Shown: positions 8,743 through 27,424, counted from the first letter of the stretch. The stretch: DNA of 37,220 nt from Myxococcales bacterium (GCA_029861865.1 JAOTYL010000003.1:298695-335914), one strand, 5' to 3'. A program made the numbers and translations. Notes: generated by a model not told the origin, from the letters alone.

Positions 8743-9228
8743 CTAGTGATGCGTGAGATGCGGAACGGCGGGCCGCTCCGGCGTTTGCGCTCGGGCTTCC
8801 AGGGCGTGACTGAGCTCCACCCGGTTGCCGACCTGGAGCCGTCGGTACGCTTCCTTCAAGTGCTGGCGCACCGTGTGGACGCTGATCTCGAGGATCCTGG
8901 AGATCTCGCTTGCGGTCGCACCGGCGGCAGCGTACTCGGCGATTTCGTACTGACGCGGGCTGAGAAGCTGCTTGGCGTGCGAGTCGCCTTTCTGCATCTC
9001 GTAGACTGTGGCGACGCAGCCGCGTCGCGGGCCGTCGAGCGCCTGCAAGAGCACCCGCTTGCCCCCGAGCAGGAGCCACTGGCGCTCTCGACGCGCGGAT
9101 TGAAGGGTACGAACCGCCTCGACCAGACGCGGAATCACGGGCGGGGGCAACGCCAAAGGAAATGATTTCGTATGAGCGGTCAGCTCCCCGCTGACGTCAA
9201 ACATCGCCAAACCAGAATAGGGGGACAT
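8743..9228 (-). CDS. LuxR-type helix-turn-helix transcriptional regulator
   Basis: 161-aa DNA-binding protein. The C-terminal part is a LuxR/GerE HTH: LSPRQYEIAEYAAAGATASE then ILEISVHTVRQHLKEAYRRL, near residues 90-145. The N-terminal 85 residues have no receiver signature (no conserved Asp/Lys pattern) and no autoinducer domain that I recognise; they contain a small beta-rich stretch (RRERQWLLLGGKRVLLQALD). The start is ATG 9228, with ATG 9204 as an alternative. It precedes agcS on the same strand, so control of the symporter operon is a reasonable guess. Confidence 0.82.
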   Translation of the reverse strand: MSPYSGLAMFDVSGELTAHTKSFPLALPPPVIPRLVEAVRTLQSARRERQWLLLGGKRVLLQALDGPRRGCVATVYEMQKGDSHAKQLLSPRQYEIAEYAAAGATASEISRILEISVHTVRQHLKEAYRRLQVGNRVELSHALEARAQTPERPAVPHLTHH

Positions 9229-9300: not shown

Positions 9301-9350
9301 CTGTCCACGAGAGAGGACAGTCGCACCGACAATCGTCCTTGCAGAGGACG
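9301..9350. other. two hairpins between the AAA+ regulator and luxR-type gene
   Basis: CTGTCC-N8-GGACAG (9301-9320) and CGTCCT-N5-AGGACG (9334-9350) lie just after the stop codon of the minus-strand AAA+ gene (ends at 9355) and upstream of the LuxR-type gene. They share the GTCC/GGAC core. No T-run follows on the minus strand, so they could be a rho-dependent end, an operator pair or an RNA structure. Confidence 0.4.
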
Positions 9351-9354
9351 CCTA

Positions 9355-10866
9355 TCAGCGCCGCATGCGAATGTTGTGCGCCTCAATCAGCTTGTAGAGG
9401 TGCGAGCGGGCGACATCGAGACGACGCGCGGCTTCGCTGATATTCCAATCGGATTCTTCGAGGGCGGCTGCGACGATCCGTGCCCGAACCAAGTGCAATT
9501 GGTTTTGCAGTGAGCGGTGCTCCTGCTCGTCGGAATCACTCGATCTATCCGTACCGAAGAGGTGCTCGGGCTCGATGAATTTAGATTCCGAAACCACGGC
9601 GCTTACCGCCCCTGCTTCGATCGTATGCGCGAGCTGTCGCACGTTGCCTGGCCACTCCGCAAGCTGAATGGCAGTCACCGACGCGGGGGAAAGCTCGATC
9701 CCATTAAATTTGTGTCGAACACATGCCTGCCTGAGGAAGTGCCTCGCAAGGGGCAACACATCTTCAGGCCGCTCCAACAGGGCCGGAACCCGGACTTCCA
9801 GCACCCGCAGCCGATACAAGAGATCTTCGCGGAACTTCCCATCACGAACGGCCTCGTCCAGGTCGGAGTTGGTCGCCGCGAGGATACGTACGTCGGCCTG
9901 CCGGGGTTTTGATTCGCCTAACCGAAAATAGGTCCGAGATTGCAAGAGCTGCAACAGCTTTGCCTGGGCGGCGGGGGCTAGCTCTCCGATGTCGTCGAGG
10001 AACAAGGTCCCCCCTTCTGCGGCGCCGACGCGGCCTTCGTGACCCGTTCGTGGTGCGGTCGAGTGGCCTCCCGGTCCGGACCCGAACAGCTCGTTCTCGA
10101 TCAGGTGCTCGGGGAGCGCGGCGCAATTCACCTCCGCGAAAGCTCTGGCCGCCCGTTGACTGTTCGCGTGTACCGCGCGCGCAAGCAGCGATTTTCCGGT
10201 TCCGGACCGGCCGACGAAGAGGATGTTGATGTCGAGCGGTGCGGCGAGGGCCAGCTTGGAGAGCACATCCTTCATGGCAAGGCTTCGTGCGATCAGCCCC
10301 TTGAACGGAAGAAGCTCCGACAGATCTTTCGATTGTTGAACCCGCGCCTCTGCTACGATGCGTTCGCAGACGGGCGTGAGGCAGCGCGCGAACATGTCGA
10401 TGATCCACTCCGCATGAGGGTCGAAGGGCCGCGCATCTCGAGCGCCTCCGAGATAGACGACACCCCGTATGCTATCGTGGCCGATCGGCGCGCAAAGCAC
10501 GGCTTGGATCCGCTGTGCACGGACGCTTTCGAACTCCGAGAACCTCGGATCCTGCAGGGCTGACGCGGTGTGGATCGTGCGTCCTGCTGCGAGCGCCTCC
10601 GCGATGATCCCGCGGGAAAAGAATCGACGCACACCTTCGAGCTCCTCCTCGTCGTAGCCCTCCGCTGCATGCCAATGGCTGTCGCTGTCGGAATCCTCAT
10701 CCTTACACTCAATGTATCCTTGTTGCGCTTCGACCACGTCGACCAGAAGGCGCAGCGCTTCAGGAAGAAGATCTTGAGGGGCGTCCGCCTGTTGGAGGCG
10801 AAGCAATCCAAGGAAGAACTCTCGCTCGCGTGAAAGTCTTTCGATATCCCGGGGCGTGTCGTGCAC
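9355..10866 (-). CDS. GAF–AAA+–Fis family regulator (NtrC-like) lacking the GAFTGA loop
   Basis: 503-aa protein built like a bacterial enhancer-binding protein. Residues about 20-190 look like a GAF sensor domain. An AAA+ domain follows (residues about 190-420) with Walker A VGRSGTGKSLLARA near 218, Walker B GGTLFLDDIG near 285, and LAATNSDLDEAV, FREDLLYRL, WPGNVRQL. A Fis-type HTH ends the chain (NISEAARRLDVARSHLYKLI). The loop between ELFG and EGR reads SGPGGHSTAPRTGH, so the sigma54-contacting GAFTGA is replaced by GGHSTA; classical sigma54 activation is therefore doubtful. The start is GTG 10866. It is divergent from the FAD oxidoreductase across 218 bp containing the CCCTCGAACGAGGG palindrome, which it may bind (inference). 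Confidence 0.9.
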   Translation of the reverse strand: MHDTPRDIERLSREREFFLGLLRLQQADAPQDLLPEALRLLVDVVEAQQGYIECKDEDSDSDSHWHAAEGYDEEELEGVRRFFSRGIIAEALAAGRTIHTASALQDPRFSEFESVRAQRIQAVLCAPIGHDSIRGVVYLGGARDARPFDPHAEWIIDMFARCLTPVCERIVAEARVQQSKDLSELLPFKGLIARSLAMKDVLSKLALAAPLDINILFVGRSGTGKSLLARAVHANSQRAARAFAEVNCAALPEHLIENELFGSGPGGHSTAPRTGHEGRVGAAEGGTLFLDDIGELAPAAQAKLLQLLQSRTYFRLGESKPRQADVRILAATNSDLDEAVRDGKFREDLLYRLRVLEVRVPALLERPEDVLPLARHFLRQACVRHKFNGIELSPASVTAIQLAEWPGNVRQLAHTIEAGAVSAVVSESKFIEPEHLFGTDRSSDSDEQEHRSLQNQLHLVRARIVAAALEESDWNISEAARRLDVARSHLYKLIEAHNIRMRR

Positions 10867-10976
10867 GAGCGGCCAGCCTAACTCAACGCCGGAGGTTGGG
10901 TCGATGGGGTTTGGCTCGTTTTTCGTGCGCTATCGTGGCGGCCGCCGCAAAACGCGAAACCCCAATCGAAGGCCAT

Positions 10977-10990
10977 CCCTCGAACGAGGG
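10977..10990. promoter_or_regulatory. operator-like palindrome CCCTCGAACGAGGG (copy 1)
   Basis: Two perfect 6-bp arms around AA, extendable to 8-bp arms (AT...AT). It lies in the 218-bp divergent region between the AAA+ regulator and the FAD oxidoreductase, 95 bases before the oxidoreductase start. An identical 14-mer lies between the kinase and the P450 at 16820-16833. The position and exact conservation fit the binding site of a shared regulator. Confidence 0.65.
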
Positions 10991-11018
10991 ATACTCGCTC
11001 ACCTGGTTCGGGGTCATC

Positions 11019-11048
11019 TTGTATTACATCTTGGATGCAATATTACAA
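11019..11048 (+). promoter_or_regulatory. possible promoter of the FAD oxidoreductase, within an imperfect inverted repeat
   Basis: TTGTAT (11019-11024), a 16-base spacer and TATTAC (11041-11046) make a modest sigma70-like pair in an unusually AT-rich patch. The same patch is flanked by TTGTA and TACAA, an inverted repeat. It begins 29 bases after the palindrome and ends about 37 bases before the start codon. Confidence 0.35.
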
Positions 11049-11084
11049 ACCTAACGCCAGGAATTGCATGATTGAGGGCAGGGG

Positions 11085-13070
11085 ATGAGGAAAAAACGAG
11101 TCGCGATCTACGGAGGTGGCGTGGGAGGGCTGAGCGCCGCCCATGAGCTTGCGAAGTTGGGGGACCGCTTTGAGGTTCATGTCTACGAGCCGTCGAATGG
11201 GGTTGGCGGCAAAGCGCGCAGTCAGTACCTGCCCCACGCGGGAAGCGACCGGGGCCTTCCGGGAGAGCACGGGTTCCGGTTCTTTCCCGCGTTCTACTTT
11301 CACCTCGACCAAACCATGGCGGAGATCCCGCTAGCCAATGGAAGGCGTGTGATCGACAACCTCGTGCCGAGCCAACAGTTCGCTATCGCGCGAAACGGTC
11401 GCAAGCTTGCACTGGCCAAGCGCCGTATCGGACGTGGGACCGACACTCTGACCGATGCGGTGCAGCTTCTTTCCACCTGGTTTTCACAAGACGCGCTCGG
11501 TCTCTCATCGCCGGACCTCGCCAACATGGTCTATGCCTTCACGAAGTTCATGATGTCCGCCGAGAGTCGTCGCGCGCAGCAGTTCGATCACATGAGTTGG
11601 TATGACTTCACCAACGGCGACTCGCAGCTGCTCTCCGACAACTACCGGGTCGTCGCGAATACGCTGCCCCGCACCATGGTGGCGATGGATGGACGGCGCG
11701 GAAGCGCATATACGTTGGGAAAGGTGTGCTTGCAGGTGCTCTTCCTAGACCCTTTGCGGTCCCATTCGAGCGCGGATCGGGTGCTCAATGCGCCGACCGA
11801 CGAAGCATGGCTTCTCCCTTGGTATGATCATCTACGCGCGCGTGGAGTGCAGTTTCATTTCGATGCCGCGTTGGAGCATCTCGAGCTCAAAGTCACCGAA
11901 ACCGGACACGAGGTCGAGGCTGGGCGGCTCAGCAATGGCCGTAGCGTTGATGCGGACTATCACGTATGTGCGATGCCCGTCGATCGAATGGCTTCGCTCG
12001 TAGACGACGCCCTTGCGCACGCCTCGCCAAGCTTAGACCGAGTACGAACGCGTCTTTCCCATCTGAATGCGTGGATGGTCGGAGCGCAATACTTCCTGCG
12101 CCAGGACATTCAGATAGCAAGTGGCCATGTGATCTATTCCGACTCGCCCTGGGCACTCACTTCGATCTCGCAAGCGCAATTCTGGGACGATAAAGACGCT
12201 TCGTTCGCCGAGAAGCACGGCGGCGATGGGATCCATGGCGTTCTTTCGGTCGATATCTCGGACTGGGACGCCGTTGCGCCCCGGCTGGGCCGCGCCGCCA
12301 AGGATTGTACTCGAGAGGAAGTTCTCGACGAGACCTTCCGGCAGATCATGGACGGGCTCAACCGAAGAGAAAACGATGTCCTCGGCTGGGATGACGTCGC
12401 CTATCGCCATTTGGACGACAACATCAAGTTCGGGGGCCCCGAGAACCGGGCCATGAGCAATGACACGCCGCTGTTCGTCCACGAGCCCGGGACTTATCAA
12501 TACAGACCAGCGGCGCAGACCGAGATCGAAAACTTGCTACTGGCCTCCGATTACGTCGCGACACATACGAATCTGGCGACCATGGAGGGTGCCAACGAAG
12601 CGGCGCGTCACGCGGTCAAGAGCATCCTGAGACGCGAGGGATGTGTCGCCAGGTTGCCGCGCATACGCGCGCTTTCCGAGCCGATGGTGTTCCGACCCTT
12701 TCGTCGCTTCGATGCGTGGTTGATGTCGCAGGACCTCGGTTTGGACCACATGTTCGATCTCGGAGAGGTAGAGCTCTCCGAGCTACTCGCTCAGGCTGAA
12801 CGGGTATCGCAAAAGGTGTCCCTGCCTCGCATGCGTGCCTTCGTGCGCCAAATGAGCTCGCGGTCTCGAGTGCGTGGGTCGGCCCCTCGATCCGTCGTGC
12901 GCGCGCAGTCTGCCTTCCGTCAGGTGGTAAGCTCGGTGTCGAGAGCCGAATTCCTTGCTAGCAGGCGGACCTTCACGATGCCTACCCGCCGTCGAAGCCC
13001 TCCGATCCCTGCCCGCGAAGGGGCACCACGCGCCGCCCCGTCGCCGTCGGAGCTACCGCCAGCGATCTGA
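11085..13070 (+). CDS. FAD-dependent oxidoreductase, phytoene desaturase/amine oxidase-like
   Basis: 661-aa protein with an N-terminal Rossmann FAD-binding motif IYGGGVGGLSAAHELAKLG (residues 8-26), the acidic end of strand 2 at E35, and the second FAD motif GVGGKARS. It has the HGFRFFPAFY stretch typical of the uncharacterised desaturase-like group related to carotenoid desaturases and hydroxysqualene dehydroxylases. Near residue 485 a C-terminal FAD-contact region reads NLLLASDYVATHTNLATMEG. The last 70 residues are basic and Pro/Ser-rich, probably disordered. Start ATG 11085 follows a good purine-rich site (GAGGGCAGGGG). The substrate cannot be told; a terpenoid, carotenoid or sterol-like lipid is a guess supported by the P450 in the same putative regulon. 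It converges on the kinase gene with a 19-base gap. Confidence 0.82.
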   Translation: MRKKRVAIYGGGVGGLSAAHELAKLGDRFEVHVYEPSNGVGGKARSQYLPHAGSDRGLPGEHGFRFFPAFYFHLDQTMAEIPLANGRRVIDNLVPSQQFAIARNGRKLALAKRRIGRGTDTLTDAVQLLSTWFSQDALGLSSPDLANMVYAFTKFMMSAESRRAQQFDHMSWYDFTNGDSQLLSDNYRVVANTLPRTMVAMDGRRGSAYTLGKVCLQVLFLDPLRSHSSADRVLNAPTDEAWLLPWYDHLRARGVQFHFDAALEHLELKVTETGHEVEAGRLSNGRSVDADYHVCAMPVDRMASLVDDALAHASPSLDRVRTRLSHLNAWMVGAQYFLRQDIQIASGHVIYSDSPWALTSISQAQFWDDKDASFAEKHGGDGIHGVLSVDISDWDAVAPRLGRAAKDCTREEVLDETFRQIMDGLNRRENDVLGWDDVAYRHLDDNIKFGGPENRAMSNDTPLFVHEPGTYQYRPAAQTEIENLLLASDYVATHTNLATMEGANEAARHAVKSILRREGCVARLPRIRALSEPMVFRPFRRFDAWLMSQDLGLDHMFDLGEVELSELLAQAERVSQKVSLPRMRAFVRQMSSRSRVRGSAPRSVVRAQSAFRQVVSSVSRAEFLASRRTFTMPTRRRSPPIPAREGAPRAAPSPSELPPAI

Positions 13071-13089
13071 AATCGTGTGCAGCCCCCTG

Positions 13090-16000
13090 CTACTCGCCGC
13101 GAGTCAGCGGTAGTAGACAACGCGCAAAGGCATTTGGGTCCGCGACTTCCGGGCCGAACGCTGGACGATAGGAACCCTCGAGCTGATTGCGGTAGTGAAT
13201 GATCGCTGCTCGGAACAGGGACATGTCGGCGCGGTCGAACGATCGCTCCGCGTCGATCAGTGCCTTTCGTGCGGCTCCGAGCTCGCGTTTCTCGAGACAG
13301 TATCCCGCGTGAAGCCCGCATCCCATCGCCCTGGCCCAAAGGAGGCTGTCGCGACCGAGGCGTCGACTGGCGTTTCGCACCGCTTTCAAAAGTAAAGCGC
13401 GGTCCCCGGGGTCAGTTGATTCCCTGCTGGCAGCGAGGGCAGTGCTTCCGTCGAGATAATGAAAAATGCCTCGCACCGGCCGGTTGTAGAGAACGAGGGA
13501 CGCTCGAATTCGCGGTAGCGCACGCTCGAAACGTCGACGTGCTTCGATCACGCGCGCTTCATACAGATCCGCCTGGATGTCTCCCAATAGCCCCCAGAAC
13601 TCGAGAAGCGAAAAGTCGAAACTCGAGGGCCACCGCAAGAGGGCCGCGTGTGAAGTGGTTCTTGCCGCCTCGGGCTCTCCGCGCGCGAGAAATGTGAAGT
13701 TCGTAAGACCGACGCTCACCCAAGTGGAAGCAAGTCGATCGTCGCGAATGCGAGCCTGCTCGAGCGCTCGAGCTTTCAACGATTCGACCTCGTCGATCTT
13801 GCCCTGCATCCCTAGACTCAGGGAGCTAACGATGTAGGCAGTGGAGAGCTCCCAACCTCCGACCGTGCACTTGCGCTCGATGAGCTCAGCGGCCTCTCGA
13901 CACATCTCGACTGCTTCGTTCCACTCTCCGGTGATGAACTTGGCGGTGGCTGATGTCGTGAGAGTGAGCGCCAGAAGATGAGGGTCACCGATGGCCTTAG
14001 CTTCGCGCAGGGCCTGTGTTGCCCGCCACTCGAAGATGGGACGAAAGAGCCTGGGCCCAATCGCCGCTAGATAGCAACTCTCGGTGGCGATCGCTCTTGC
14101 TCGGTGGAGCTGATCATCCGTCATGAATGCAAATCGAGTGTGAAACGCCTGATAATAGGCGGAGCGCGCGATGTCGGCCCACACCATCCCGACCGTCGCG
14201 GACCAGAGGATGTCCAACCGCTCCACGACGTCCTGATCGGCCGGGAGCGGCTTCAAGCGAACCAGCCATCGAAGGCCGGCCAGGAGCTTCTGTTTGAGAC
14301 AGAACCCGAGCAGGCGCGGGACGGAGTAAGGAAGCCGCAGCTCGGGAACGGGTAATAGAAGCGTCAGCTTGCGATAGCCTTCGTCGATAAAGCCGCTGCG
14401 CAGGAGCGCTTCTGCCGATCGGCGCCGCAACTCGCGCGCCCTGAGAGGCTCGCCGTCGGCGGTCTCCACGTGTCTAGCAGCGGTAGCGTATGCGTTTCCA
14501 GCCAATTGGCCTTGCCCTGACGCTTCGTAAGCGGCCCCGAGCCGCTCGTGGATCGGTGACTGGTCGCCCGAGCCATCCTGCAGCTCCAGACCCAACAGGT
14601 AGACTTGGATCGCTTGGTTGAACGCCATGGCAGCCATGAGGCGATCGCCGGCGCGCACGGCGTACTTTCTGGCCATGTCTTCGTCGCCCGCGCCGTGCCA
14701 GTGCCAAAACGTCGCGACGGGGTCTGCATTCGCGTCCGCGCTCAGAGTTTGGGCCAGAGCCAGATGCAGGTCACGCCGGGCTTGCGGATCAAGATTGGAC
14801 ACGAGAGCTTCGCGGATCCCATCGTGATACGGCACCAGGGGCATCATTGGACCAAGCGGAACCTGTTCGATGAGTCGACCAGCCTCGAGGAGCTCTTGTG
14901 CCGCTCGTGCAGGCGCTGTCACTCGCGTTGCAGCTGCAAGGGTCGCTAGCGTGACGGGCTTCGTCGCGATGCAACACACTTCGAGCATGCGACGTGCATC
15001 CTCGCCGATGTCTGCGAGCCTTTCGTGGAGCACGTTCGCCAATGACATCGACTGGTGCGGTACCCACTTGTGCGTTTGATCTTGCAGGTGCTGTGCGATC
15101 TGCAAAGCGAGGAATGGGTTGCCCCGGCTCTCCCTAGTGATCTTGGAAGTTTCCTCGGTGGAGGCCTCTTTCATGACGTCGCGAATCAATCGCGCCATGT
15201 CGGCGTCAGCGAGGGGTCCAAGGTGCAGGTCCAGTGCGGGAACCCGATTCGCATCGAGTAGCTCATGATACGATTCGTTTTCGCGTGCGGTCGTGACGAA
15301 AAGCAACGGCACCGGTTCATGAAGCAGGCTTCGCCAGAACTCGGCGCTGTCGGGATCGCACCATTGGAAGTCATCGATCCAAACTACGACTCTGCGAAAC
15401 CGCGAGAGCTCTATCAACACCGAGCTGAGAGCTTCTAAGCCGTGTCTCCTTCGTTCGCGAAGGTCGATCGCAGCGGATTCGAGGGAAGCTGCCGTTCTAA
15501 AGCCCTCCACCCGGGCGAAGACGGGAAAGAGTTGGAGCAGGTCGGCGGCTCTACGCGGTATGAGCCCTTTGACCTTCTCGCCGGAGAGCCGTCGAAGCTC
15601 TTGGGTTAGCGCATCGGCGATTCCGTCGATCCCGGGCAGGGGGAGGGTAGCGATCGGCGAACACCTGCCTTGTAGAACGATGGTGTCCGCCTGCTCATCA
15701 ATGCGCTCGAGCACGCTTCGTACGAAGTGCGTCTTGCCGATTCCAGAGGGACCCGACACTCGGACGACGGTGGGCTCCGACGGACTCTGAAGCCGAAACG
15801 TCCGCATCAACGCCTCCACGTTTCGTTCTCTGCCGACCATGGGCAAACCGATGCGCGATCGCGCGATCCGGGCGCTGGAGTGGGCTTTCAACTCCTGCGA
15901 TATCATGCCGGCAGTAGGGCGCGCTTTCGGGTCCGGGTCGGTCATGGAGCGAATCAGTTTTTCGAGCCAATCCGGTGTTCCCACTGGGAAAGTCGGCAAG

Positions 16001-16743
16001 CCTTGGCGCTTCAACCGATCGAGCTCAATCAAATCCGTGCCTGCGAACGGCCGGGAGCCCGTCATGCATTCGTACGCCAATACGCCGAGAGAGTAAACAT
16101 CTGCGGCGGCGGTGGTCTCCGTGGTCCAGACGGCCTCAGGGGGCATGTAGGCGAGGGTTCCCGCCGTTGCCTCTTCGCGATTGCGCTTGCCACGAATGAT
16201 CGCCATGAGACCAAAGTCGAGGAGCACGACCCGCCCACTCGGCGACAGACGGACGTTGCTCGGTTTGACGTCTCGATGGATCCAGCCGCGACCGTGCATG
16301 ACCTCCAGCAGCCCGGCCAACTGTGCAAGAGCCTGACAAACGCGATCGCAGATCGCGGGTTGCCACGCTCCTCGGGGAGCACCCTGTCGTACCCACTCCG
16401 CGAGATGCGGCCCGTCGACCAACTCCATCGTGAAGAAGCAATGCTCGCCCTCGATCACGAGCTCATACATGTGAGCGAGGTTTTTGTGATCGATCTCACA
16501 AAGCGCTCGAAACTCGCGCTTCAGATCGTAGAGGCCGTCCGGGTCGAATCCCCGCAATGTCTTGAGGGCCACCTCCATCTTCGTCGGGATGTGTAGCGCT
16601 CGGTATACGGTCCCTTCGCGGCCTCGGCCGAGCTCTTCGGAAACCTCGTAGTTGAGCCCTCGGAACACCTCGGACAGGTGCGCCTCTTGCGGTGGACTGA
16701 TCGGGGGATGTCTGTCGGTGGGGACTAACGGGCTTGCCGGCAT
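13090..16743 (-). CDS. giant Ser/Thr protein kinase with AAA ATPase and TPR-like C-terminus (PknK-like)
   Basis: 1217-aa signalling protein. A Hanks-type kinase occupies residues about 32-290: glycine loop ELGRGREGTVYRA, VALK lysine, catalytic loop IHRDVKPSNV near 155-165, DFG near 175, and TAGTLAYMPPEA. Then comes an AAA_16/MalT-like ATPase with MVGRERNVEALM and Walker A VSGPSGIGKTHFVRSV near 330, plus VVVWIDDFQWCD as Walker B. The remaining ~650 residues are Ala/Leu-rich helical repeats of TPR type, a likely signal- or partner-binding scaffold. No membrane helix or DNA-binding domain is visible. The start is ATG 16743; GTG 16761 adds six residues. It is divergent from the P450 across a region carrying the same palindrome as the AAA+ regulator's promoter, so it probably feeds a signal into that regulator (inference). 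Confidence 0.92.
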   Translation of the reverse strand: MPASPLVPTDRHPPISPPQEAHLSEVFRGLNYEVSEELGRGREGTVYRALHIPTKMEVALKTLRGFDPDGLYDLKREFRALCEIDHKNLAHMYELVIEGEHCFFTMELVDGPHLAEWVRQGAPRGAWQPAICDRVCQALAQLAGLLEVMHGRGWIHRDVKPSNVRLSPSGRVVLLDFGLMAIIRGKRNREEATAGTLAYMPPEAVWTTETTAAADVYSLGVLAYECMTGSRPFAGTDLIELDRLKRQGLPTFPVGTPDWLEKLIRSMTDPDPKARPTAGMISQELKAHSSARIARSRIGLPMVGRERNVEALMRTFRLQSPSEPTVVRVSGPSGIGKTHFVRSVLERIDEQADTIVLQGRCSPIATLPLPGIDGIADALTQELRRLSGEKVKGLIPRRAADLLQLFPVFARVEGFRTAASLESAAIDLRERRRHGLEALSSVLIELSRFRRVVVWIDDFQWCDPDSAEFWRSLLHEPVPLLFVTTARENESYHELLDANRVPALDLHLGPLADADMARLIRDVMKEASTEETSKITRESRGNPFLALQIAQHLQDQTHKWVPHQSMSLANVLHERLADIGEDARRMLEVCCIATKPVTLATLAAATRVTAPARAAQELLEAGRLIEQVPLGPMMPLVPYHDGIREALVSNLDPQARRDLHLALAQTLSADANADPVATFWHWHGAGDEDMARKYAVRAGDRLMAAMAFNQAIQVYLLGLELQDGSGDQSPIHERLGAAYEASGQGQLAGNAYATAARHVETADGEPLRARELRRRSAEALLRSGFIDEGYRKLTLLLPVPELRLPYSVPRLLGFCLKQKLLAGLRWLVRLKPLPADQDVVERLDILWSATVGMVWADIARSAYYQAFHTRFAFMTDDQLHRARAIATESCYLAAIGPRLFRPIFEWRATQALREAKAIGDPHLLALTLTTSATAKFITGEWNEAVEMCREAAELIERKCTVGGWELSTAYIVSSLSLGMQGKIDEVESLKARALEQARIRDDRLASTWVSVGLTNFTFLARGEPEAARTTSHAALLRWPSSFDFSLLEFWGLLGDIQADLYEARVIEARRRFERALPRIRASLVLYNRPVRGIFHYLDGSTALAASRESTDPGDRALLLKAVRNASRRLGRDSLLWARAMGCGLHAGYCLEKRELGAARKALIDAERSFDRADMSLFRAAIIHYRNQLEGSYRPAFGPEVADPNAFARCLLPLTRGE

Positions 16744-16819
16744 TACCTCTTGTCGGGCCACGTTACCACGAAGATCCCGGTTCTGAGCAGCTCGACGCGC
16801 TCTGGCGCTTTCACACCCT

Positions 16820-16833
16820 CCCTCGAACGAGGG
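16820..16833. promoter_or_regulatory. operator-like palindrome CCCTCGAACGAGGG (copy 2)
   Basis: Identical 14-mer to the one at 10977-10990, here with arms extendable to 8 bp (CT...AG). It sits in the divergent kinase/P450 intergenic region, 77 bases from the kinase start and 81 bases before the P450 start, central enough to control both. Confidence 0.65.
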
Positions 16834-16913
16834 AGTACCTAGCCGCCTTCCGCCTGGCTAAGGTGATCGGTGGAGAGGGCCAAGAAGGCCGGTTCCAGGG
16901 GGGAATGATAGTT

Positions 16914-18582: not shown

Positions 18583-18675
18583 TTTCCGTTAATCACGGAT
18601 TTGCGCACTGCTACTAGAATTGCGATGCTCTAGAGATGGGGGATCCCGTAAGTGAGGGATAGATCAATTGCCCTG
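18583..18675 (+). promoter_or_regulatory. conserved leader element, copy A (promoter, ribosome site and signal-peptide start)
   Basis: Bases 18596-18675 match 21943-22022 without gaps at 62 of 80 positions, including ACTAGAATTGCGAT, CTCTAGA and GGATCCCG. The TAGAATTG box lies exactly 37 bases before the start codon in both. TTTCCGTT lies 32 bases upstream of TAGAATTG here and in copy C (22107). GGGGGA serves as ribosome site for GTG 18652, and CCGTtaatcACGG is a local inverted repeat. A sigma54-like -24 element is degenerate here (TGCTAC instead of TGGCAC). Confidence 0.65.
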
Positions 18676-21600
18676 CTCTTTTGGGCACTTGCTCTGTCTT
18701 GGCACGGGGGGGCCTCGGCCCAATGCTCGACCGCGGACCTCGACATGAACGGAGTGCCCGATGTGTGTCCCGCGGGGGCGAACTACATCGAAGGGACCGC
18801 CGCTGGGGAGACCCTCCGCGGCACCAACGGTGCGGACTGTATCTTCGGGCTTGGGGGCGACGACGACATTACCGGTCGCAACGGCGACGACTACATTTGT
18901 GCCGGGACTGGCGCCGACATCGTCAGCGCCGGCGGCGGCAACGACACGATCTACGGTGAGGCTGGCAACGATGAGCTCGATGGCGGCCAGGCGGACGATT
19001 TCGTCGAGGGTGGAGACGGCGACGATATAGTTGACGGCTCGTCGGGCGCGGACAGCCTCAATGGCGGCGCCGGGAACGACACGATCGACGGCGGTGGTGG
19101 CTCGGATTCCCTGACTGGTGAAGACGGCGATGACGTTCTCATTGGAAGTGGCGGCAATGATTCACTGAGCGGCGGCGATGGCGCGGACACTTTGGACGGA
19201 GGTGGCGGCACCGATAGCTGCGTCGAGGAGGTCCCGGGGACATCCGAGCGGCTGACGAGCTGCGAGACCGTGACCTACGCGTCGGTCGGTCGGTTCGATG
19301 TTGTCGAAAGTGGTCGAGGGGCCATGGTCACCTGGGAGACCACGACCGAGGTCGGGGTGGTTGCGTTTCGGCTGTGGCGGATCGAAGCCGACGGAACGCC
19401 GCGGTTTATTGAGGAGCTCGCTGCAGCGCCCGGGGGCGACCTGCACGGCGGCACCTATTTCGTGCGCGATGAGTCAGCGCCGGACGCTGAGATCACGTAC
19501 CTGCTCGAGGAGCGCACCATGGCAGGAGGAAGCGTCCGTCACGGGCCGTTCGTCCGCTCGCTGGATCCAGCACCGGCGAGTCATCCGTCTCGACTTTGGG
19601 TGGGGCGCTCGGGCCGCATTGCCCGGACAGTCCCGCTCCGACGGCTTCGCCGCGAGTGGCCGGCCGAATCGAGGGCTGCATTCCAGACGAAGAGCGAAGA
19701 CTCCCCGGATGCCGTCGAGCTCGTCGTCGATGCTCCGGGCGTGATCGAGGTCAGCGCCGAGGAGATCTCGGAGGTGCTTGGGCTTTCAGTCACGGAGATC
19801 GAAGCGTTGATCGACGAGGGTGGCCTCGACCTTCGTCTCGCCGGCACGCCGGTGCCCTGGCGGTCGGTCGGGGAGGGCGCGGGCATCCGCTTCGTGGCCG
19901 ACGACTCCCGCTCGCCGTTCACGCTCCTCAAACGATATCTGTTGTCGGTCGGTCCTGGGGTGCGCATGGAGACGCGTGAGCTCGTGCCCGCCAGCCAGGA
20001 AGCGCCGCACTCGTTTGTCGAAACCGCGCGGTTCGAGGAGAACGCATTCCCGGGGCTCACCGGCAATCCCGACCCGCGCAAGGACTTTTACTTCTGGCAT
20101 GCGCTGACCCCAGCGGCCGAGGTCACGATTTCCGTCGCGCTTCCGTCGCTGGCGACCCCGTCTGCGGTGGCGCTTCGCGTATTCGTGCACGGCGCCACCG
20201 ACCATCCCGAGCAAGCCCATCAAGTCGAGCTTCGGTGGAACGGTCAAAGCCTCGGCACCTTCGACCTGCTCGGGCGCAGGTCCCATGTGTTGGAGTTGCC
20301 CTTCGACGGTGTGGCCGCGACGGCTGACAACGAGCTCGTGATCGCGCAGCACGTCCTCGGTGTGGCGCTTCCGGTGGTGTACGTCGACGCGGTCGAGGTC
20401 GACTACCTGCGAGAAGCACGAGCCGAAGGGCCTTCGTTTCGGTTTGGCGGGAGCGCCGACGGCATGCACACGATCAACGGGCTCACTGAGGGTTCCGTCG
20501 ATCTTTACGACGTCACCGATGCGGGCTCTCCAGTGGCCTATGGAGAGACCGCGCTCGTCGCCGACGGCGAGACGTATCGCTTGAGCTTTACCGAGGCCAA
20601 CGCGACAGCTCGGTTCTTGGCAGCCGGCCTTGAGGCCGTGGCCTCTCCGACCGAGATGCGCCCGCATTTCGCTTCGACGCTTCGAGAAGCCGATCACGAT
20701 GAAAACTACATCATCGTAGCGGCCTCCCACCTCGTCGACGAGGCGCGAGCGTTAGCTGACCTCCGCGAGGCCGACGGTTATCGCGTGTTGCTCGTCGACA
20801 TCGACGAGATCTACTGGGCGTTCGCAGGCGGAGTCCCAGACCCCGCCGCGATTCGGTCGTTCTTCGTTCATGCATGGGAGACGTGGTCGAGCCCGCCACG
20901 CTATGCCGCGTTGGTGGGCGTCGGCACGTTCGACTACCGGGACTTGGGCGGTCTCGGCGGCAACTGGGTGCCGCCCATGCTCGCCCAGGCCGACGGCGGT
21001 CTCGTTGGCTCGGATTCGATGCTGGGTGATGTCGTTGGTGACGACGGCGTGCCCGAGATCGCGATCGGACGACTGCCGGTTGCTGATGGCGACGAGCTTG
21101 CGCAAGTGCTCGAAGCCACGCGGCGGTTCGAAGCCGAGCACGCCGAGATGGATGTGCTCGTCGCGTCCGATGACTCGGAGATGCGCGAGTTTGCGCACGC
21201 GACTCGACTCCTCCGCACATGGCTGCCCTTCGAGCGGACCCACGAGGTCGACCTCAACAAAGAGGCGCTCGAAGACGCCCGCGCTCGGCTCTTCGCCTTG
21301 TGGGAGAACTCGCTCAGTTGGGTGAGCTTCGTCGGGCACGGAGGCCTCGATCGGCTAGGGAACGAGGGCCTGCTCATGACCACCGACTTGCCGAGCCTGA
21401 GCGCGAACAGCAATCCTGTCCTGCTCGGCTGGACGTGCAACATCGCTCGCTTCGACATCCCTGGATTCCTCGCATTAGGCCACGCCTTGCTCGTTCAGGG
21501 AATGAGCCCCGCGGTCTTCAGCGCCACCGGCTGGTCCAACCACCACGATACCGAGACGCTTCGAGCCGAGCTCACCAAGGCCGCCTTCGTCTCGGATGCC

Positions 21601-21912
21601 GAAACGATCGGCGAAGCGATCCTTCGCGCCCACCGCGCCGCCTCGGACGCCCCCGTTCAGTTGCATCGGGTGTATGCGCTACTCGGCGATCCAGCGCTCC
21701 GCCTCCGCGCACCCACAGCCGATCGGGACTTGAACGATCCGAGCGCGAGCGGTGAGCCGGTCGCGGGCCAAGGAGATGAGGCAAGTTGGGGGAGCTCCGG
21801 CTGCCAAATCGGGCCCGAACGAGGGGCCGACCCGTGGTTTGGGGTCCTCGTCTTGGTCGCCGGTCTGTGGGTCTCATCGCGCCGTCGTCAGCCCCGCGCT
21901 GCGCAAAGGTAG
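18652..21912 (+). CDS. secreted C25 (gingipain-family) protease with N-terminal RTX repeats and MYXO-CTERM-like tail
   Basis: 1086-aa surface or secreted protease. A signal peptide (LLFWALALSWHGGASAQ) is followed by about nine RTX calcium-binding nonapeptides (GGxGxDxL type, for example GGAGNDTIDGGGGSDSL) over residues about 45-190. A beta-rich linker with a WETTTEVGVVAFRLWR segment comes next. The C-terminal peptidase C25 domain starts near residue 684 (NYIIVAASHL). The catalytic dyad can be placed: His896 in FVGHGGLD and Cys929 in LGWTCNIARF. The tail (Cys, then VLVLVAGLWV, then SSRRR) fits a MYXO-CTERM sorting signal. Start GTG 18652 matches ATG of the vestigial copy at 21999. From the linker onward it is homologous to the next large gene. 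A predatory or nutrient-scavenging role is inference. Confidence 0.88.
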   Translation: MRDRSIALLFWALALSWHGGASAQCSTADLDMNGVPDVCPAGANYIEGTAAGETLRGTNGADCIFGLGGDDDITGRNGDDYICAGTGADIVSAGGGNDTIYGEAGNDELDGGQADDFVEGGDGDDIVDGSSGADSLNGGAGNDTIDGGGGSDSLTGEDGDDVLIGSGGNDSLSGGDGADTLDGGGGTDSCVEEVPGTSERLTSCETVTYASVGRFDVVESGRGAMVTWETTTEVGVVAFRLWRIEADGTPRFIEELAAAPGGDLHGGTYFVRDESAPDAEITYLLEERTMAGGSVRHGPFVRSLDPAPASHPSRLWVGRSGRIARTVPLRRLRREWPAESRAAFQTKSEDSPDAVELVVDAPGVIEVSAEEISEVLGLSVTEIEALIDEGGLDLRLAGTPVPWRSVGEGAGIRFVADDSRSPFTLLKRYLLSVGPGVRMETRELVPASQEAPHSFVETARFEENAFPGLTGNPDPRKDFYFWHALTPAAEVTISVALPSLATPSAVALRVFVHGATDHPEQAHQVELRWNGQSLGTFDLLGRRSHVLELPFDGVAATADNELVIAQHVLGVALPVVYVDAVEVDYLREARAEGPSFRFGGSADGMHTINGLTEGSVDLYDVTDAGSPVAYGETALVADGETYRLSFTEANATARFLAAGLEAVASPTEMRPHFASTLREADHDENYIIVAASHLVDEARALADLREADGYRVLLVDIDEIYWAFAGGVPDPAAIRSFFVHAWETWSSPPRYAALVGVGTFDYRDLGGLGGNWVPPMLAQADGGLVGSDSMLGDVVGDDGVPEIAIGRLPVADGDELAQVLEATRRFEAEHAEMDVLVASDDSEMREFAHATRLLRTWLPFERTHEVDLNKEALEDARARLFALWENSLSWVSFVGHGGLDRLGNEGLLMTTDLPSLSANSNPVLLGWTCNIARFDIPGFLALGHALLVQGMSPAVFSATGWSNHHDTETLRAELTKAAFVSDAETIGEAILRAHRAASDAPVQLHRVYALLGDPALRLRAPTADRDLNDPSASGEPVAGQGDEASWGSSGCQIGPERGADPWFGVLVLVAGLWVSSRRRQPRAAQR

Positions 21913-21933
21913 CCTCCTCGAGCGGCTTTTTTA
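21909..21933 (+). terminator. weak intrinsic terminator after the RTX protease
   Basis: AGCC-N9-GGCT followed by TTTTTT begins at the stop codon of the RTX protease gene. The stem is only 4 bp with a CTCGAG-containing loop, so termination may be partial. Confidence 0.4.
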
Positions 21934-21942
21934 CATCAACAA

Positions 21943-22022
21943 CGGATTTGCACCCTGGCACTAGAATTGCGATACTCTAGACACAGAGGATCCCGCGAAT
22001 GCGGGAGAGAGCGATTGTCCTA
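21943..22022 (+). repeat. conserved leader element, copy B
   Basis: Second copy of the leader block found before the RTX protease (62 of 80 bases identical to 18596-18675, no gaps). It retains AGAGGA as ribosome site and the hairpin CCCGC-GAAT-GCGGG spanning the ATG at 21999. It carries the best sigma54-like promoter match in the window (21956-21970). It is followed by only 10 codons and a stop. Confidence 0.65.
21956..21970 (+). promoter_or_regulatory. sigma54-type promoter match TGGCAC-N5-TTGC
   Basis: TGGCACTAGAATTGC has GG and GC exactly 10 bases apart, as in the -24/-12 consensus (TGGCAC-N5-TTGCA/T; here G follows TTGC). A transcript would start around 21982, about 17 bases before ATG 21999, and could run on into the lectin-type protease gene at 22190. 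No other GG-N10-GC element of this quality was noticed in the intergenic regions. Confidence 0.5.
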
Positions 22023-22031
22023 GGTTTCTAG
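21999..22031 (+). pseudogene. vestigial 5' end of a third C25-protease paralog, or an 10-residue leader peptide
   Basis: ATG 21999 opens MRERAIVLGF and then stops at TAG 22029-22031. The RTX protease begins MRDRSIALLF, so seven of ten residues are identical or conservative and the alignment is continuous with the duplicated leader DNA. Downstream of the stop the sequence no longer resembles either protease. The simplest reading is the remnant left when a tandem paralog was lost by recombination. A retained short upstream ORF that influences the gene at 22190 is the alternative. Confidence 0.5.
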
Positions 22032-22106
22032 GGAATCCGGCAGGCGAGAACCTTCGTGAAAGCCGACACCTACCGCTTGGCACCCCAGGCCATCCGGATA
22101 TCCATT

Positions 22107-22189
22107 TTTCCGTTTATATTTCATTTGCACAGTATAAGTAGAATTGTTTACACTCCATATATGAGGAGCCTCGCATATAAGGACCCGCG
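22107..22189 (+). promoter_or_regulatory. conserved leader element, copy C (diverged)
   Basis: TTTCCGTT (22107) and TAGAATTG (22139) are spaced 32 bases apart exactly as in copy A, with ATTTGC(A/G)CA in between. The distance to the start codon is 51 instead of 37 bases. The sigma54-like -24 is lost (TATAAG) and the region is AT-rich with TATATG/CATATAA, so a different promoter type may have evolved. AAGGA lies 8 bases before ATG 22190. Confidence 0.5.
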
Positions 22190-25100
22190 ATGAGGGCTGG
22201 ATGGGTTGCCAGCGCTTTGTGTGCATTTGCCGTGTCGTGGCATGCGGATGCGTCTGCCCAATGTAGCGGGGGCGGCACGCGCGGTGCGTTTGGCAGCTCA
22301 GAGTACATTTTCTGCCAGATCGGGACCGACTGGAACGCGGCCAAAGTCGACTGCGAAACCGGTGGGACCGACTGGAGTCTCACCCGGATCGATCACGCGT
22401 ACGAAAACAATTTCGCGCGAGGGCTTGGGGCCGGTAACGCCTGGATGGGCGCGAGCGACCAGGTCACCGAGGGGCAATGGGTGTGGCCGGATGGCGCGCA
22501 GTTCTGGCAAGGAGACGACGGGGGCTCAGCGGTGGGTGGGCTCTACAACAACTGGGACACCAATAACGAAGAGCCCGGCTCGGGCGACTGTGGCCGCATG
22601 GACACTGCCAGCACTTGGGATGCCCGCGGTTGCAGTAACCCGTACGCCTACATTTGCGAGGGGCCTCCGGTCTGCGGTAACGGCGTCCGAGGCGCCGGCG
22701 AAGAATGCGACGATGGCAATACCGCGGATGGCGATGGCTGCAGCGCCACGTGCACGCTTGAAGGGCCTCCCGTGTGCGGTGACGGATTCATTTGGGAGGG
22801 CGAAGCGTGCGATGACGATAACACCGCCAGCGGCGACGGATGCAGCAGCACCTGCGAAGTCGAGGTTGGCTTCACATGTACCGGTCAGCCCTCCCAGTGC
22901 ACCGCGATCTGCAGCGGGGGACTCACGTGGAAAAGAGGCCTGACGACGACCGAGTACCTCTATTGCAATCTCACCACCAACGGTGCGTCCGCGCGGGAGG
23001 CCTGCGACGGCATAGGTCCTGGCTGGTCGCTGACCCGCATCGACGATGTCGATGAAAACACCTATGTCACAGGCTTTTCGGGCTCGGCAAAGTGGATCGG
23101 CGCCAACGATGGCGCGGTTGAAGACACCTGGGTGTGGCCCGATGGCGAGCAGTTTTGGCAAGGCGACGAAAACGGCTCACCCGTCGGAGGCCTCTACAAC
23201 AACTGGAACAGCGGTCAGCCGAACAACATTAGCAATCAGGACTGCGCCGAGATGCAGAGCTCGGGTGGCTGGACCGACATCTCATGCACCAGTACCCGCC
23301 GGTACGTGTGTGAGGGCCCCCCCATCTGCGGAAATGGCGTGGTGGCCACGCCCGAGGAGTGCGACGACGGCAATACGGCCGATGGTGATGGTTGCAGCGC
23401 GACGTGCACGCTCGAGGCCCCCCCGCCGTGCGGGGACGGTCGGATTTGGCTCGGCGAGGAGTGCGACGACGGGGACGGCCTCGGTGGCGACGGATGCAGC
23501 TCCACCTGTCAGATCGAGCCCGGGTACACCTGCACCGGAGAGCCATCGACCTGCACGCCCGTCTGCAGCGGCAGCTTCGACTGGCGCAGCCAGATGGGCT
23601 CTACGACGACCGAGTATTTTCTGTGCGAAGAATCGATTACTGCAGTTGAGGCCGAGACGATTTGCGAGGGGCTTGGTTCGGGGTGGACGCTCACGCGGAT
23701 CGACGACGCGACCGAAAACACCTACATCGACGGACTCATCGGAGAACACCTTTGGATCGGTGGACAGGATGAGGCCGTCGAAAGCGCATGGCGCTGGCGC
23801 GATGGGGATCAGTTCTGGTCGGGTGACGAGAATGGCTCTCCGGTCGGTGGGCTCTACACCAACTGGGACCCGGGCCAGGAGCCCGACGGCGGCACCGACG
23901 AAAACTGCGCACGACAAGAGGACGGCGGTTTATGGCAAGACCGAGACTGCACCGATACCAACCGGTTCGTCTGTGAGGGTCCGCCGATCTGCGGAAACGG
24001 CGTGACAACGACCCCAGAAGAATGCGACGACGGCAATACGGCCGATGGTGATGGCTGTAGCGCGACCTGCACCCTCGAGGGCCCAGCACCGTGCGGGGAC
24101 GGTCGGATTTGGCTCGGAGAAGAGTGTGACGACGGGGACGCCCTCGGTGGCGACGGATGCAGCTCTACGTGTCAGGTCGAGCCAGGCTATACGTGCACCG
24201 GAGAGCCGTCGACCTGCACGCCTATTTGCACCGGCAACTTCGAGTGGCGCAGCCGGATGGGCTCGACGACGACCGAGTATTTCCTCTGCGAGCAATCGCA
24301 TACCGCGAGTGCTGCAGAGACGATTTGCGAGGGACTTGGCCCGGGCTGGTCGCTGACCCGCATCGACGATGTCGATGAAAATACCTACGTCGCGGGCTTT
24401 TCGGGCTCTGCGAAGTGGATCGGCGCCAACGACCAAGGTACCGAGGGAGTGTGGGTTTGGCCCGATGGTGCGCAGTTTTGGCAAGGCGACGAAAACGGTT
24501 CACCCGTCGGAGGCCTCTACAACAACTGGAATAGTGGTCAGCCGAACAACTGGAACGGCACCCAAGACTGCGCCGAAATGCAAAGCTCGGGCGGCTGGAC
24601 CGACATCTCATGCACCAGTACGCGCCAGTACGTGTGCGAGGGTCAGCCGATCTGCGGAAATGGCGCGGTGGCGATGCCAGAGCTCTGTGACGACGGCAAT
24701 ACCATGGATGGCGATGGCTGTAGCTCGAGCTGCACCGTCGAGTCGAGCTACGAATGCTTCTTGCCAGATGACCTGGGGACGCCGAGCGTCTGCCAGATCT
24801 CGGCCGATGTGGTGGTTGGGCGCGTCGAGCTCCTCGAGGTGCGCGGAAGGCCAGTGCTGCAATGGGAAACGACATCACAAAGTGGCACGCTCGGCTTTGT
24901 TGTGTCGCGGCAAGTCCGGCATGGATGGAAGCCGCTTCACGAGGGGATTCTCTTGGCGCTTCCCGGTGCACCTCAGGGAGGCGTCTACAGCCTGCAGGAC
25001 ACCGGTGCGTCCATCCGCCGACCTGTGAGCTATCGACTCGAAGAGATCGAAATCGACGGCGCACGAAAGCCGATCGGTGAGTGGCAGTTGGTCGCACGCC

Positions 25101-27424
25101 CCGCAAGCGCGCCTGTGCTCTGGGAAAGCGATTATGAGGCTGTGCCTCACGCGCTGGTGCCGCGGCGTGTCGACGCATCCGCGGGCTTTGCCCGGAAGAG
25201 CCATACTTCGGTGCCGGCCACTCGCGCGGTGCTCGACGTCGCGCAAGACGGCGCCGTCGAAGTGTCCGTCACGACCCTAGCCGAGCTCTTTGCGAAAAGC
25301 CCTGGGGAAGTCCGCGGCTGGGCGATCGCGGGAGACGTGCGGATCACCGACCAGGCTTACCAGGTGCCGTGGTGGTTCGACGAAGCGCGCGACAGTCTCG
25401 TCGTCGTCGGGCGGTCCCCGACGAGCGTCTATGATGCAGGGCGAAAGTACGTGCTGCGAAACGCCACGGGCCGCCAGATGCTCGTCGAGTCACGCGAAAC
25501 CCCGGCAACTCCGGTCGGTACGGGCACCACGCGACATGTCGTGGACTCCAACGTTTTTCCGGCGCTCGTCGTCTCCCCCGACCCCGAGTCGGATTACTGG
25601 TTTGCTGCGTCGTTGAGTGCGCGGGCCTCCGGCTTCGGGCAATACGAGACAGACATCAGTCTTCCCGATGCGGCCGTCGAAGCCGCCGTGCTACGAGTGC
25701 ACCTCTACGGCGGTTGGAACCTCAGCGACGAAACCGCACAACGCGTCGTGATCCATGTGAACGGCGTCCCGGTCGACACCGTCGAAGTCACGGCGATCGG
25801 ACCCCACGTCTTCGAGATGGCGATCGATCCGACCGTTTTGTACGCCGGCAACAATCGTCTGTTGCTGGTGGCTGAGTCCGAGGTGCCGGCGGCCGTGTCG
25901 GGCTTGTATGTCGATCGCTTCGAGCTCGAGGTCGACCGGGTGCTTGCAACGGCGCAAGCAGAGCTCGAGTTCACCGCCCTCGAGACCGGCCCGCTGACCG
26001 TCGAGGTCGCCGCTACCTCGGCGCATGTGCTCGACACCACCGGCCACAAGAAAGTCGAGGCCACAGTGGTAACTGACACCGAATTCGGCATCGCGTTGGT
26101 CAGCTTCGAAGCGGAGCAGGATCACAGTTACCTCGTTTTCGAAGAACCAAGGGCGCCGAGCGCGATGCGTGGAGCGGTCGATTTCAACGCGCCACCGAGC
26201 GGAGCCAGCTACGTGGTGATCACGCCCGCCGCGTGGACCGACGCCGCCGAGCGCTTTGCCGCGCTGCACGCAGCCGAAGGCCTATCGACCGCAGTGGTGT
26301 CGATCGAAAGCCTCTACGACGCCTATGGGAATTCCGTCGCGACGCCACATGCCATCCATGACTTCCTGGTCGACGCCGACGCGCAGTGGGCTGACAAGCC
26401 TCGCTTTGTGTTGCTGCTTGGTGACGGCACGCTCGACTATCGAAACCTCATGGGGATCGGCCCCGGCGCCATCGCCCCGCGGATGGTTCAGACCAAAGGG
26501 GGCCTCTACGCATCCGATGCCTTGCTCGGCGACCTCGATGATGATGGCCTCGCCGACGTGGCGGTCGGACGAATTCCCGCTCAGACCCTCGATGAAGCGG
26601 TGGCCGCCTTCGAAGCGGTGCAGACTTATCAAGAGCTCGAGTTTGACGACTTTGGTTTGGCGGCGTTGATGATTTCTGGGATGAATCGAGGCGCGAACTT
26701 CGCTGGCGCGATCGATGATCTGCAGCAGATGTTTCCACCTGCGCTCGAAACGCGATCGATCCGCGTCGATACCGTCGGCGTCGAGCAGGCCCGAGACGAC
26801 CTCGCGATCGACCTGCAGCGCGCGCCGTTCTGGATGCATTACACCGGCCACGGCGGGCTCGATCGCTTCGACGATCAAGGCGTGCTGAAGTCGGAAGACA
26901 TTCCGACGCTGCGACCCCTCTTGCCGCCCATCGTGACCGGCATGACCTGCGCGACTTCTCGCTTCGAGTTGCCGGGCACAGATTCGCTGGCTGAGCACAT
27001 GGTCGACCCGGCCAACGCGTTCGCGATCGCCTCGTGGGGCCCGTCCGGGCTCACGATGTCTCACGACGCAGCCATGCTCGGTGAAGCCTTCGCTACCAAG
27101 CTCTTCAGCGACGACGGTGCAACACCTCGTCTTGGCGATCTGGTCGTTGCGCTGCACCAGGAACCCGCGCCGGCGTATAATCCGGATGCACTGGCCGTTT
27201 ACGTCCTGCTCGGCGACCCGGCCCTTCGTTTGAAGTCACTGCCGGAGGGCAGCGTCGTGGCGCCGCCGGTCGATCCGGGGCTCCCGCCCGATGGTTCTGC
27301 ATTTACCTCGCTCGGATCGGCCGCTGGGTGCGCCGTTCGATTCAGCCGCAATCAACCCTCGCCGCTTTGGCTACTTCTTGCCGTCTCGTGCCTCGTTCAT
27401 CGACGGCGCTCTCGCTCGGCCTGA
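22190..27424 (+). CDS. secreted C25 (gingipain-family) protease with four C-type lectin/DUF4215 units and MYXO-CTERM-like tail
   Basis: 1744-aa surface protein. A signal peptide (ALCAFAVSWHADASAQ) is close to that of the RTX paralog. Residues 25 to about 870 hold four tandem units, each a C-type lectin fold (WSLTRID ... WIGANDG ... VWPDGEQFWQGD ... YVCEG) followed by one or two DUF4215 Cys-rich repeats (CGNGVVATPEECDDGNTADG type). Residues 875-1744 form the same chassis as the RTX paralog: a beta-rich linker (LQWETTSQSGTLGFVVSR), then peptidase C25 from about residue 1340 with His1554 in YTGHGGLD and Cys1587 in GMTCATSRF. The tail is Cys, WLLLAVSCLV, HRRRSR (MYXO-CTERM-like). The lectin units suggest glycan or prey-surface binding that delivers the protease (inference). 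Start ATG 22190 has AAGGA upstream. Confidence 0.9.
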   Translation: MRAGWVASALCAFAVSWHADASAQCSGGGTRGAFGSSEYIFCQIGTDWNAAKVDCETGGTDWSLTRIDHAYENNFARGLGAGNAWMGASDQVTEGQWVWPDGAQFWQGDDGGSAVGGLYNNWDTNNEEPGSGDCGRMDTASTWDARGCSNPYAYICEGPPVCGNGVRGAGEECDDGNTADGDGCSATCTLEGPPVCGDGFIWEGEACDDDNTASGDGCSSTCEVEVGFTCTGQPSQCTAICSGGLTWKRGLTTTEYLYCNLTTNGASAREACDGIGPGWSLTRIDDVDENTYVTGFSGSAKWIGANDGAVEDTWVWPDGEQFWQGDENGSPVGGLYNNWNSGQPNNISNQDCAEMQSSGGWTDISCTSTRRYVCEGPPICGNGVVATPEECDDGNTADGDGCSATCTLEAPPPCGDGRIWLGEECDDGDGLGGDGCSSTCQIEPGYTCTGEPSTCTPVCSGSFDWRSQMGSTTTEYFLCEESITAVEAETICEGLGSGWTLTRIDDATENTYIDGLIGEHLWIGGQDEAVESAWRWRDGDQFWSGDENGSPVGGLYTNWDPGQEPDGGTDENCARQEDGGLWQDRDCTDTNRFVCEGPPICGNGVTTTPEECDDGNTADGDGCSATCTLEGPAPCGDGRIWLGEECDDGDALGGDGCSSTCQVEPGYTCTGEPSTCTPICTGNFEWRSRMGSTTTEYFLCEQSHTASAAETICEGLGPGWSLTRIDDVDENTYVAGFSGSAKWIGANDQGTEGVWVWPDGAQFWQGDENGSPVGGLYNNWNSGQPNNWNGTQDCAEMQSSGGWTDISCTSTRQYVCEGQPICGNGAVAMPELCDDGNTMDGDGCSSSCTVESSYECFLPDDLGTPSVCQISADVVVGRVELLEVRGRPVLQWETTSQSGTLGFVVSRQVRHGWKPLHEGILLALPGAPQGGVYSLQDTGASIRRPVSYRLEEIEIDGARKPIGEWQLVARPASAPVLWESDYEAVPHALVPRRVDASAGFARKSHTSVPATRAVLDVAQDGAVEVSVTTLAELFAKSPGEVRGWAIAGDVRITDQAYQVPWWFDEARDSLVVVGRSPTSVYDAGRKYVLRNATGRQMLVESRETPATPVGTGTTRHVVDSNVFPALVVSPDPESDYWFAASLSARASGFGQYETDISLPDAAVEAAVLRVHLYGGWNLSDETAQRVVIHVNGVPVDTVEVTAIGPHVFEMAIDPTVLYAGNNRLLLVAESEVPAAVSGLYVDRFELEVDRVLATAQAELEFTALETGPLTVEVAATSAHVLDTTGHKKVEATVVTDTEFGIALVSFEAEQDHSYLVFEEPRAPSAMRGAVDFNAPPSGASYVVITPAAWTDAAERFAALHAAEGLSTAVVSIESLYDAYGNSVATPHAIHDFLVDADAQWADKPRFVLLLGDGTLDYRNLMGIGPGAIAPRMVQTKGGLYASDALLGDLDDDGLADVAVGRIPAQTLDEAVAAFEAVQTYQELEFDDFGLAALMISGMNRGANFAGAIDDLQQMFPPALETRSIRVDTVGVEQARDDLAIDLQRAPFWMHYTGHGGLDRFDDQGVLKSEDIPTLRPLLPPIVTGMTCATSRFELPGTDSLAEHMVDPANAFAIASWGPSGLTMSHDAAMLGEAFATKLFSDDGATPRLGDLVVALHQEPAPAYNPDALAVYVLLGDPALRLKSLPEGSVVAPPVDPGLPPDGSAFTSLGSAAGCAVRFSRNQPSPLWLLLAVSCLVHRRRSRSA
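22262..24800 (+). repeat. four tandem ~650-660-bp lectin/DUF4215 coding repeats
   Basis: Units start near 22262, 22907, 23565 and 24225 (periods about 645, 658 and 660). The lectin parts of units 2 and 4 are nearly identical in protein, while the DUF4215 parts of units 2 and 3 are nearly identical at DNA level (GACGGTCGGATTTGGCTCGG occurs in both). Unit 4 has a single DUF4215 repeat; the others have two. The mosaic similarity implies unequal crossing over or conversion within the gene. Confidence 0.85.

Follow-up and report, generated by a model that had tools for sequence, protein, structure and literature searches.

The window analysed here, a 37,220-nucleotide stretch of the genome of a Myxococcales bacterium, contains a gene cluster organised around two divergent intergenic regions, each of which carries one copy of the same palindrome (Table 1). 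The FAD oxidoreductase gene separates the AAA+ regulator gene from the kinase gene, which has a conserved alternative start at ATG 16743, and we found no receiver domain in the 161-residue LuxR-type protein. Two adjacent large proteins with C25 (gingipain-type) peptidase domains are also encoded in the window (18652-27424), one of them with RTX repeats and the other with C-type lectin domains, and a second FAD oxidoreductase paralogue, 39% identical, lies elsewhere on the same contig (L119, G000:C18:96598-98310), with kinase-like genes within several kilobases.

Table 1. Genes and candidate regulatory sites of the cluster, in window coordinates
Feature	Position	Strand	Remarks
LuxR-type regulator, small (161 aa), GerE HTH	8743..9228	-	Downstream of the AAA+ gene
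Dyad GTCC-N8-GGAC, member of a tandem pair	9303..9318	-	Upstream of luxR; candidate site for the AAA+ regulator
Dyad GTCC-N7-GGAC, second of the tandem pair	9335..9349	-	One mismatch in the sister genome
AAA+ regulator: GAF, sigma-54-activator AAA+, Fis-type HTH	9355..10866	-	Walker A and B intact; GGHSTA replaces GAFTGA
Palindrome copy 1, TCCCTCGAACGAGGGA	10976..10991	.	Divergent region, AAA+ regulator gene / FAD oxidoreductase gene
FAD amine-oxidase-type oxidoreductase	11085..13070	+	HpnE / phytoene-desaturase-like, under curated cut-offs
Ser/Thr protein kinase fused to a STAND-type AAA_16 ATPase, with a long C-terminal part	13090..16761	-	
Palindrome copy 2, TCCCTCGAACGAGGGA	16819..16834	.	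Divergent region, kinase gene / P450 gene
Cytochrome P450	16914..18506	+	Start codon supported by the sister's frame

A repeated palindrome in two divergent intergenic regions

The original prediction described an identical 14-bp palindrome in two divergent promoter regions, with arms extending to 8 bp and differing in their outer bases, and proposed that it defines a four-gene regulon. Both copies of the 14-mer are exact (10977-10990 and 16820-16833), and the unit that they share is a 16-mer, TCCCTCG-AA-CGAGGGA, which at both places reads as two heptamers in a 7-2-7 arrangement; the next pair outward is the one that differs, being A:T at site 1 and C:G at site 2. The 16-mer stands 93 bases before the start codon of the FAD gene (ATG 11085) and 79 bases before that of the P450 gene (ATG 16914). 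It is the sole 7-2-7 palindrome repeated within the window, none of 200 Markov windows contained any repeated 7-2-7 palindrome, and the statement that the window holds no other intact copy is borne out, the nearest other match being at least three mismatches away.

The genome-wide scan that had been suggested places the 12 fixed bases CCCTCG-N2-CGAGGG at exactly two positions in the whole genome (4,225,835 bases, 23 contigs), both of them intergenic and both in the cluster. Composition alone predicts 1.4 copies of this 12-base form per genome, so that a lone copy would be unremarkable, and 0.05 copies of the 14-base form; two identical copies 5.8 kb apart, each in a divergent intergenic region, are remarkable. 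Sites with one or two mismatches number 34 elsewhere in the genome, against 17 for a reversed control, and among the 11 that we inspected ten lie inside open frames of at least 275 codons and one is intergenic. Matches to TCCCTCGNNCGAGGGA in five distant genomes were set aside, as all overlap open reading frames of at least 120 codons and their count is near chance.

The sister genome, Myxococcales MAG 13_May_SF_Bin32 (L003, G018), which is about 89% identical to ours in nucleotide sequence across the cluster, carries both palindromes as TCCCTCGAACGAGGGA at an identical spacing of 5843 bases. Site 1 sits there within a 32-base identical run. At site 2 the 16-mer is intact in an intergenic region that is 80% identical overall and largely changed just to the left of the site, and the outermost pair is broken (A/G), so that the conserved unit is 16 bp and not 18. 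In the window the P450 frame stays open upstream through site 2; in the sister the frame changes at this place and is interrupted by stops, and the site is therefore non-coding. Further strongly conserved non-coding stretches lie between the AAA+ and FAD genes (10875-10914 and 11033-11067, including GGATGCAATATTACAAAC), and are possibly promoter or start-region elements.

The palindrome is absent from the 17 other genus members searched, as are strong FAD oxidoreductase matches and AAA+ relatives at E 1e-100 or better, and matches to the LuxR protein in these genomes are at most HTH-level; absent together there and present together in the sister, palindrome and cluster thus occur together. This conservation is that of two closely related species and is not deep. 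In the comparison of related loci envisaged in the original prediction, both sites are kept in the sister; upstream of AAA+ relatives, the palindrome was found in the two sister species alone, and the FAD/kinase gene pair of the distant genome G036 lacks it. Because the palindrome is genome-unique, intergenic, conserved in the sister and absent from relatives without the cluster, its interpretation as a shared operator defining a local four-gene regulon is well supported. We propose that a dimeric regulator encoded in the cluster would bind both copies, and would thereby control two divergent promoters that serve the AAA+ and FAD oxidoreductase genes on one side and the kinase and P450 genes on the other.

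The AAA+ regulator and its genetic company

The AAA+ regulator has a sigma-54-activator domain (PF00158, E 1.4e-55) with both Walker motifs, GRSGTGKS and GGTLFLDD, and it reads GGHSTA at the position where solved homologues align GAFTGA. This altered loop, which the original prediction missed along with the luxR gene, is a property of the group. A GAHST-like loop is present in 29 of 30 AAA+ relatives, a set that includes the window's own protein and the sister's; the remaining member reads GAYTGA, and Walker A is intact in all 30. Twenty enhancer-binding proteins (EBPs) of the same order served as controls; 18 have GAFTGA or GSFTGA at the loop, the pattern having matched outside it in the other two. 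Loss of the GAFTGA loop is taken as loss of sigma-54 action (PMC3162934), and GAFTGA-less proteins of this kind act at sigma-70 promoters (PMC10274813).

Since nearly all of its relatives have a replaced loop, the AAA+ regulator probably acts without sigma-54, and the changed loop argues against ordinary sigma-54 enhancer action. No -24/-12 promoter scored above shuffles in either divergent region of either species (best scores 18-20, shuffle mean 18.8, 95th percentile 21), and a strict consensus scan returned no sigma-70 promoter. From the replacement of GAFTGA in almost the whole subfamily and the absence of a recognisable sigma-54 promoter, we would expect the protein to act at ordinary sigma-70-type promoters, like VpsR or the NtrC proteins of Rhodobacter and Caulobacter.

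The relatives, represented by loci L035-L102, form a subfamily of sigma-54-activator-like AAA+ regulators with GAHST in place of GAFTGA, and across the order their genes show linkage to those of Ser/Thr kinases and of small LuxR-type proteins. A kinase like that of the window lies within 600 bp at 12 of 22 AAA+-relative loci, against one of 20 control EBP loci (one-sided Fisher p about 5e-4, relatedness ignored), and LuxR homologues stand beside the AAA+ gene at six of the 22 and at none of the 20 (p about 0.014). In G025, homologues of the LuxR, AAA+, kinase and FAD proteins are all encoded within about 7 kb, and the convergent FAD/kinase arrangement of the window recurs in G036. The idea of a regulon gains independent support from these loci, since the relatives link the AAA+ gene with a kinase gene and the identical palindrome precedes both genes here. 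We propose that the STAND Ser/Thr kinase is probably the signalling partner of the AAA+ regulator, and that luxR is probably a further target or a co-regulator.

Candidate readers of the palindrome

Very probably, one of the regulators that the cluster itself encodes binds at the palindromes. We slightly favour the AAA+ regulator, binding through its Fis-type HTH, over the LuxR protein, while giving this assignment a little less than an even chance. Among the observations against it, the dyads most like the sites of other AAA+ relatives precede luxR and are not at the palindromes, and the 7-2-7 layout fits a NarL/LuxR-type HTH equally well. Those dyads form a tandem pair with centres 31.5 bp apart, the only perfect tandem pair in the window. 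The sister keeps the pair, with a single mismatch, though the region has strongly diverged, and shuffles of the luxR upstream region gave even a loose tandem pair in only 2 of 3000 cases.

AAA+ relatives in G026 and G121 have comparable tandem pairs before them, at 33 bp and 32 bp respectively, making three loci of 46 where 0.22 were expected. The G026 pair lies between luxR and the AAA+ gene, and its form, TGTCCT-N6-AGGACA, has just two copies in that genome, 33 bp apart. In a census of dyads with 4-base half-sites upstream of 29 AAA+ genes, GTCC-N8-GGAC ranked first (4 loci against 0.29 expected), with a score just over the 95th percentile of shuffled top scores; follow-up at 17 further loci yielded one more case, beside a canonical GSFTGA regulator, and the motif is therefore only modestly supported. 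Alternatively, the palindrome may itself be a variant of the relatives' GTCC site. Read in the same register it is TCCC-N8-GGGA, so that in both forms the fifth and sixth bases from the axis are C, and GTCCTCT, a half-site of the window's dyads, resembles the palindrome's TCCCTCG.

Unbiased palindromic EM motif searches upstream of 29 and of about 50 AAA+ relatives found no common motif and converged on coding-sequence periodicity, and repeated palindromes within the relatives' loci proved equally common in controls. One control EBP locus, L151, contains two similar palindromes, GGTCAG-N6-CTGACC (at 2396 and 9846), which are perhaps that protein's own operator. In G043 and G058, repeated hairpin-like units of CAACCACGGTCGG occur upstream of luxR and of the AAA+ gene (L060 7100-7400, L059 10200-10450).

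The main competitor, which we consider only somewhat less probable, is that the 161-residue LuxR-type protein reads the palindrome and the AAA+ regulator reads the tandem GTCC-N7/8-GGAC dyads before luxR. Finding two kinds of dyad in the same cluster suggests that two proteins bind DNA there, and the rarity of the tandem pair, its retention in the sister, its counterparts in G026 and G121 and the LuxR homologues that accompany AAA+ relatives all fit such an arrangement. NarL-type regulators use heptamers in the same 7-2-7 layout as the palindrome, but we know of no LuxR-type site with the palindrome's sequence. TGCCTC half-sites at the LuxR-containing loci of G025, G043 and G058 point the same way, but the dyads of G043 and G058 overlap a Shine-Dalgarno GGAGG, which makes them weak evidence and led us to reject them as operators, while the G025 dyad has an 8-base spacer; the tandem dyad, moreover, could be transcript structure. 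Were the LuxR protein the reader, the cluster would form a cascade with feedback, in which the AAA+ regulator controls luxR and the LuxR protein in turn controls the AAA+/FAD and kinase/P450 promoters.

It is improbable that both palindromes serve a regulator whose gene lies elsewhere in the genome. A relaxed 6-4-6 form does have a third perfect match, TCCCTCACGTGAGGGA, which is intergenic and lies on another contig (L134, G000:C16:64000-80000; site C16:71519-71534), but this lone match was not found in the sister genome. That only two strict copies exist, both in the cluster and co-absent with it in the genus, indicates a cluster-situated regulator. Least likely is that the palindromes are leader RNA hairpins, terminators or mobile-element remnants: as RNA, the 16-mer could form a stem closed by a GAAC loop and its copies bracket a 5.8-kb segment, but no terminator-like site overlaps either copy, the two copies are the only ones in the genome and are flanked by unrelated sequence, and the sister does not keep the outer pair by covariation.

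A possible myxobacterial module and known regulators

Operators of the palindrome's type are ordinary in kind; what makes the locus interesting is the AAA+ subfamily with the GAHST loop, together with the kinases and LuxR proteins that accompany it. The shared palindrome offers a testable candidate operator for a group of AAA+ proteins that are automatically annotated as sigma-54 activators and whose contact loop is replaced group-wide. Both Ser/Thr kinases and AAA+ regulators are very numerous in myxobacteria, mostly without known targets; should signalling underlie the linkage to kinase genes, a one-component AAA+ regulator of these bacteria would be connected with eukaryotic-like Ser/Thr kinases. 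Binding, sigma-54 independence, a signal from kinase to regulator and the choice between activation and repression are matters that we infer from comparing sequences. More speculatively, and with considerable doubt, we suggest a widespread myxobacterial module in which former sigma-54 activators with a GAHST loop and an intact ATPase act at sigma-70-type promoters together with STAND Ser/Thr kinases and small LuxR-type proteins; in the window's version, two operator types would form a feedback cascade governing the FAD oxidoreductase and the P450.

The ambruticin-sensing kinase complex, considered as a comparison, is unrelated. The NarL/FixJ (GerE) regulators share the LuxR-type HTH with the 161-residue protein and resemble the system in the palindrome's two heptamers, set 2 bases apart, but the palindrome's heptamer is unlike the NarL heptamer TACYYMT, and the protein differs in having no detected receiver domain. 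GAF-containing EBPs of the NifA/NorR type have the same GAF-AAA+-HTH_8 order as the AAA+ regulator, whose best solved-structure match is a Nif-specific regulator; the window's protein nevertheless scores far under all equivalog cut-offs, and has neither a GAFTGA motif nor a -24/-12 promoter. The GAFTGA-less EBPs VpsR, TyrR, HupR and the NtrC proteins of Rhodobacter capsulatus and Caulobacter likewise combine a sigma-54-activator AAA+ domain and a Fis-type HTH with loss of the sigma-54 contact loop, and in the studied cases they regulate sigma-70 promoters (PMC3162934, PMC10274813). Unlike these proteins, the window's regulator carries an N-terminal GAF domain in place of a receiver domain, its subfamily keeps the length of the loop (GAHST-A) where theirs is deleted, and genes for Ser/Thr kinases and LuxR-type proteins are linked to those of the subfamily.
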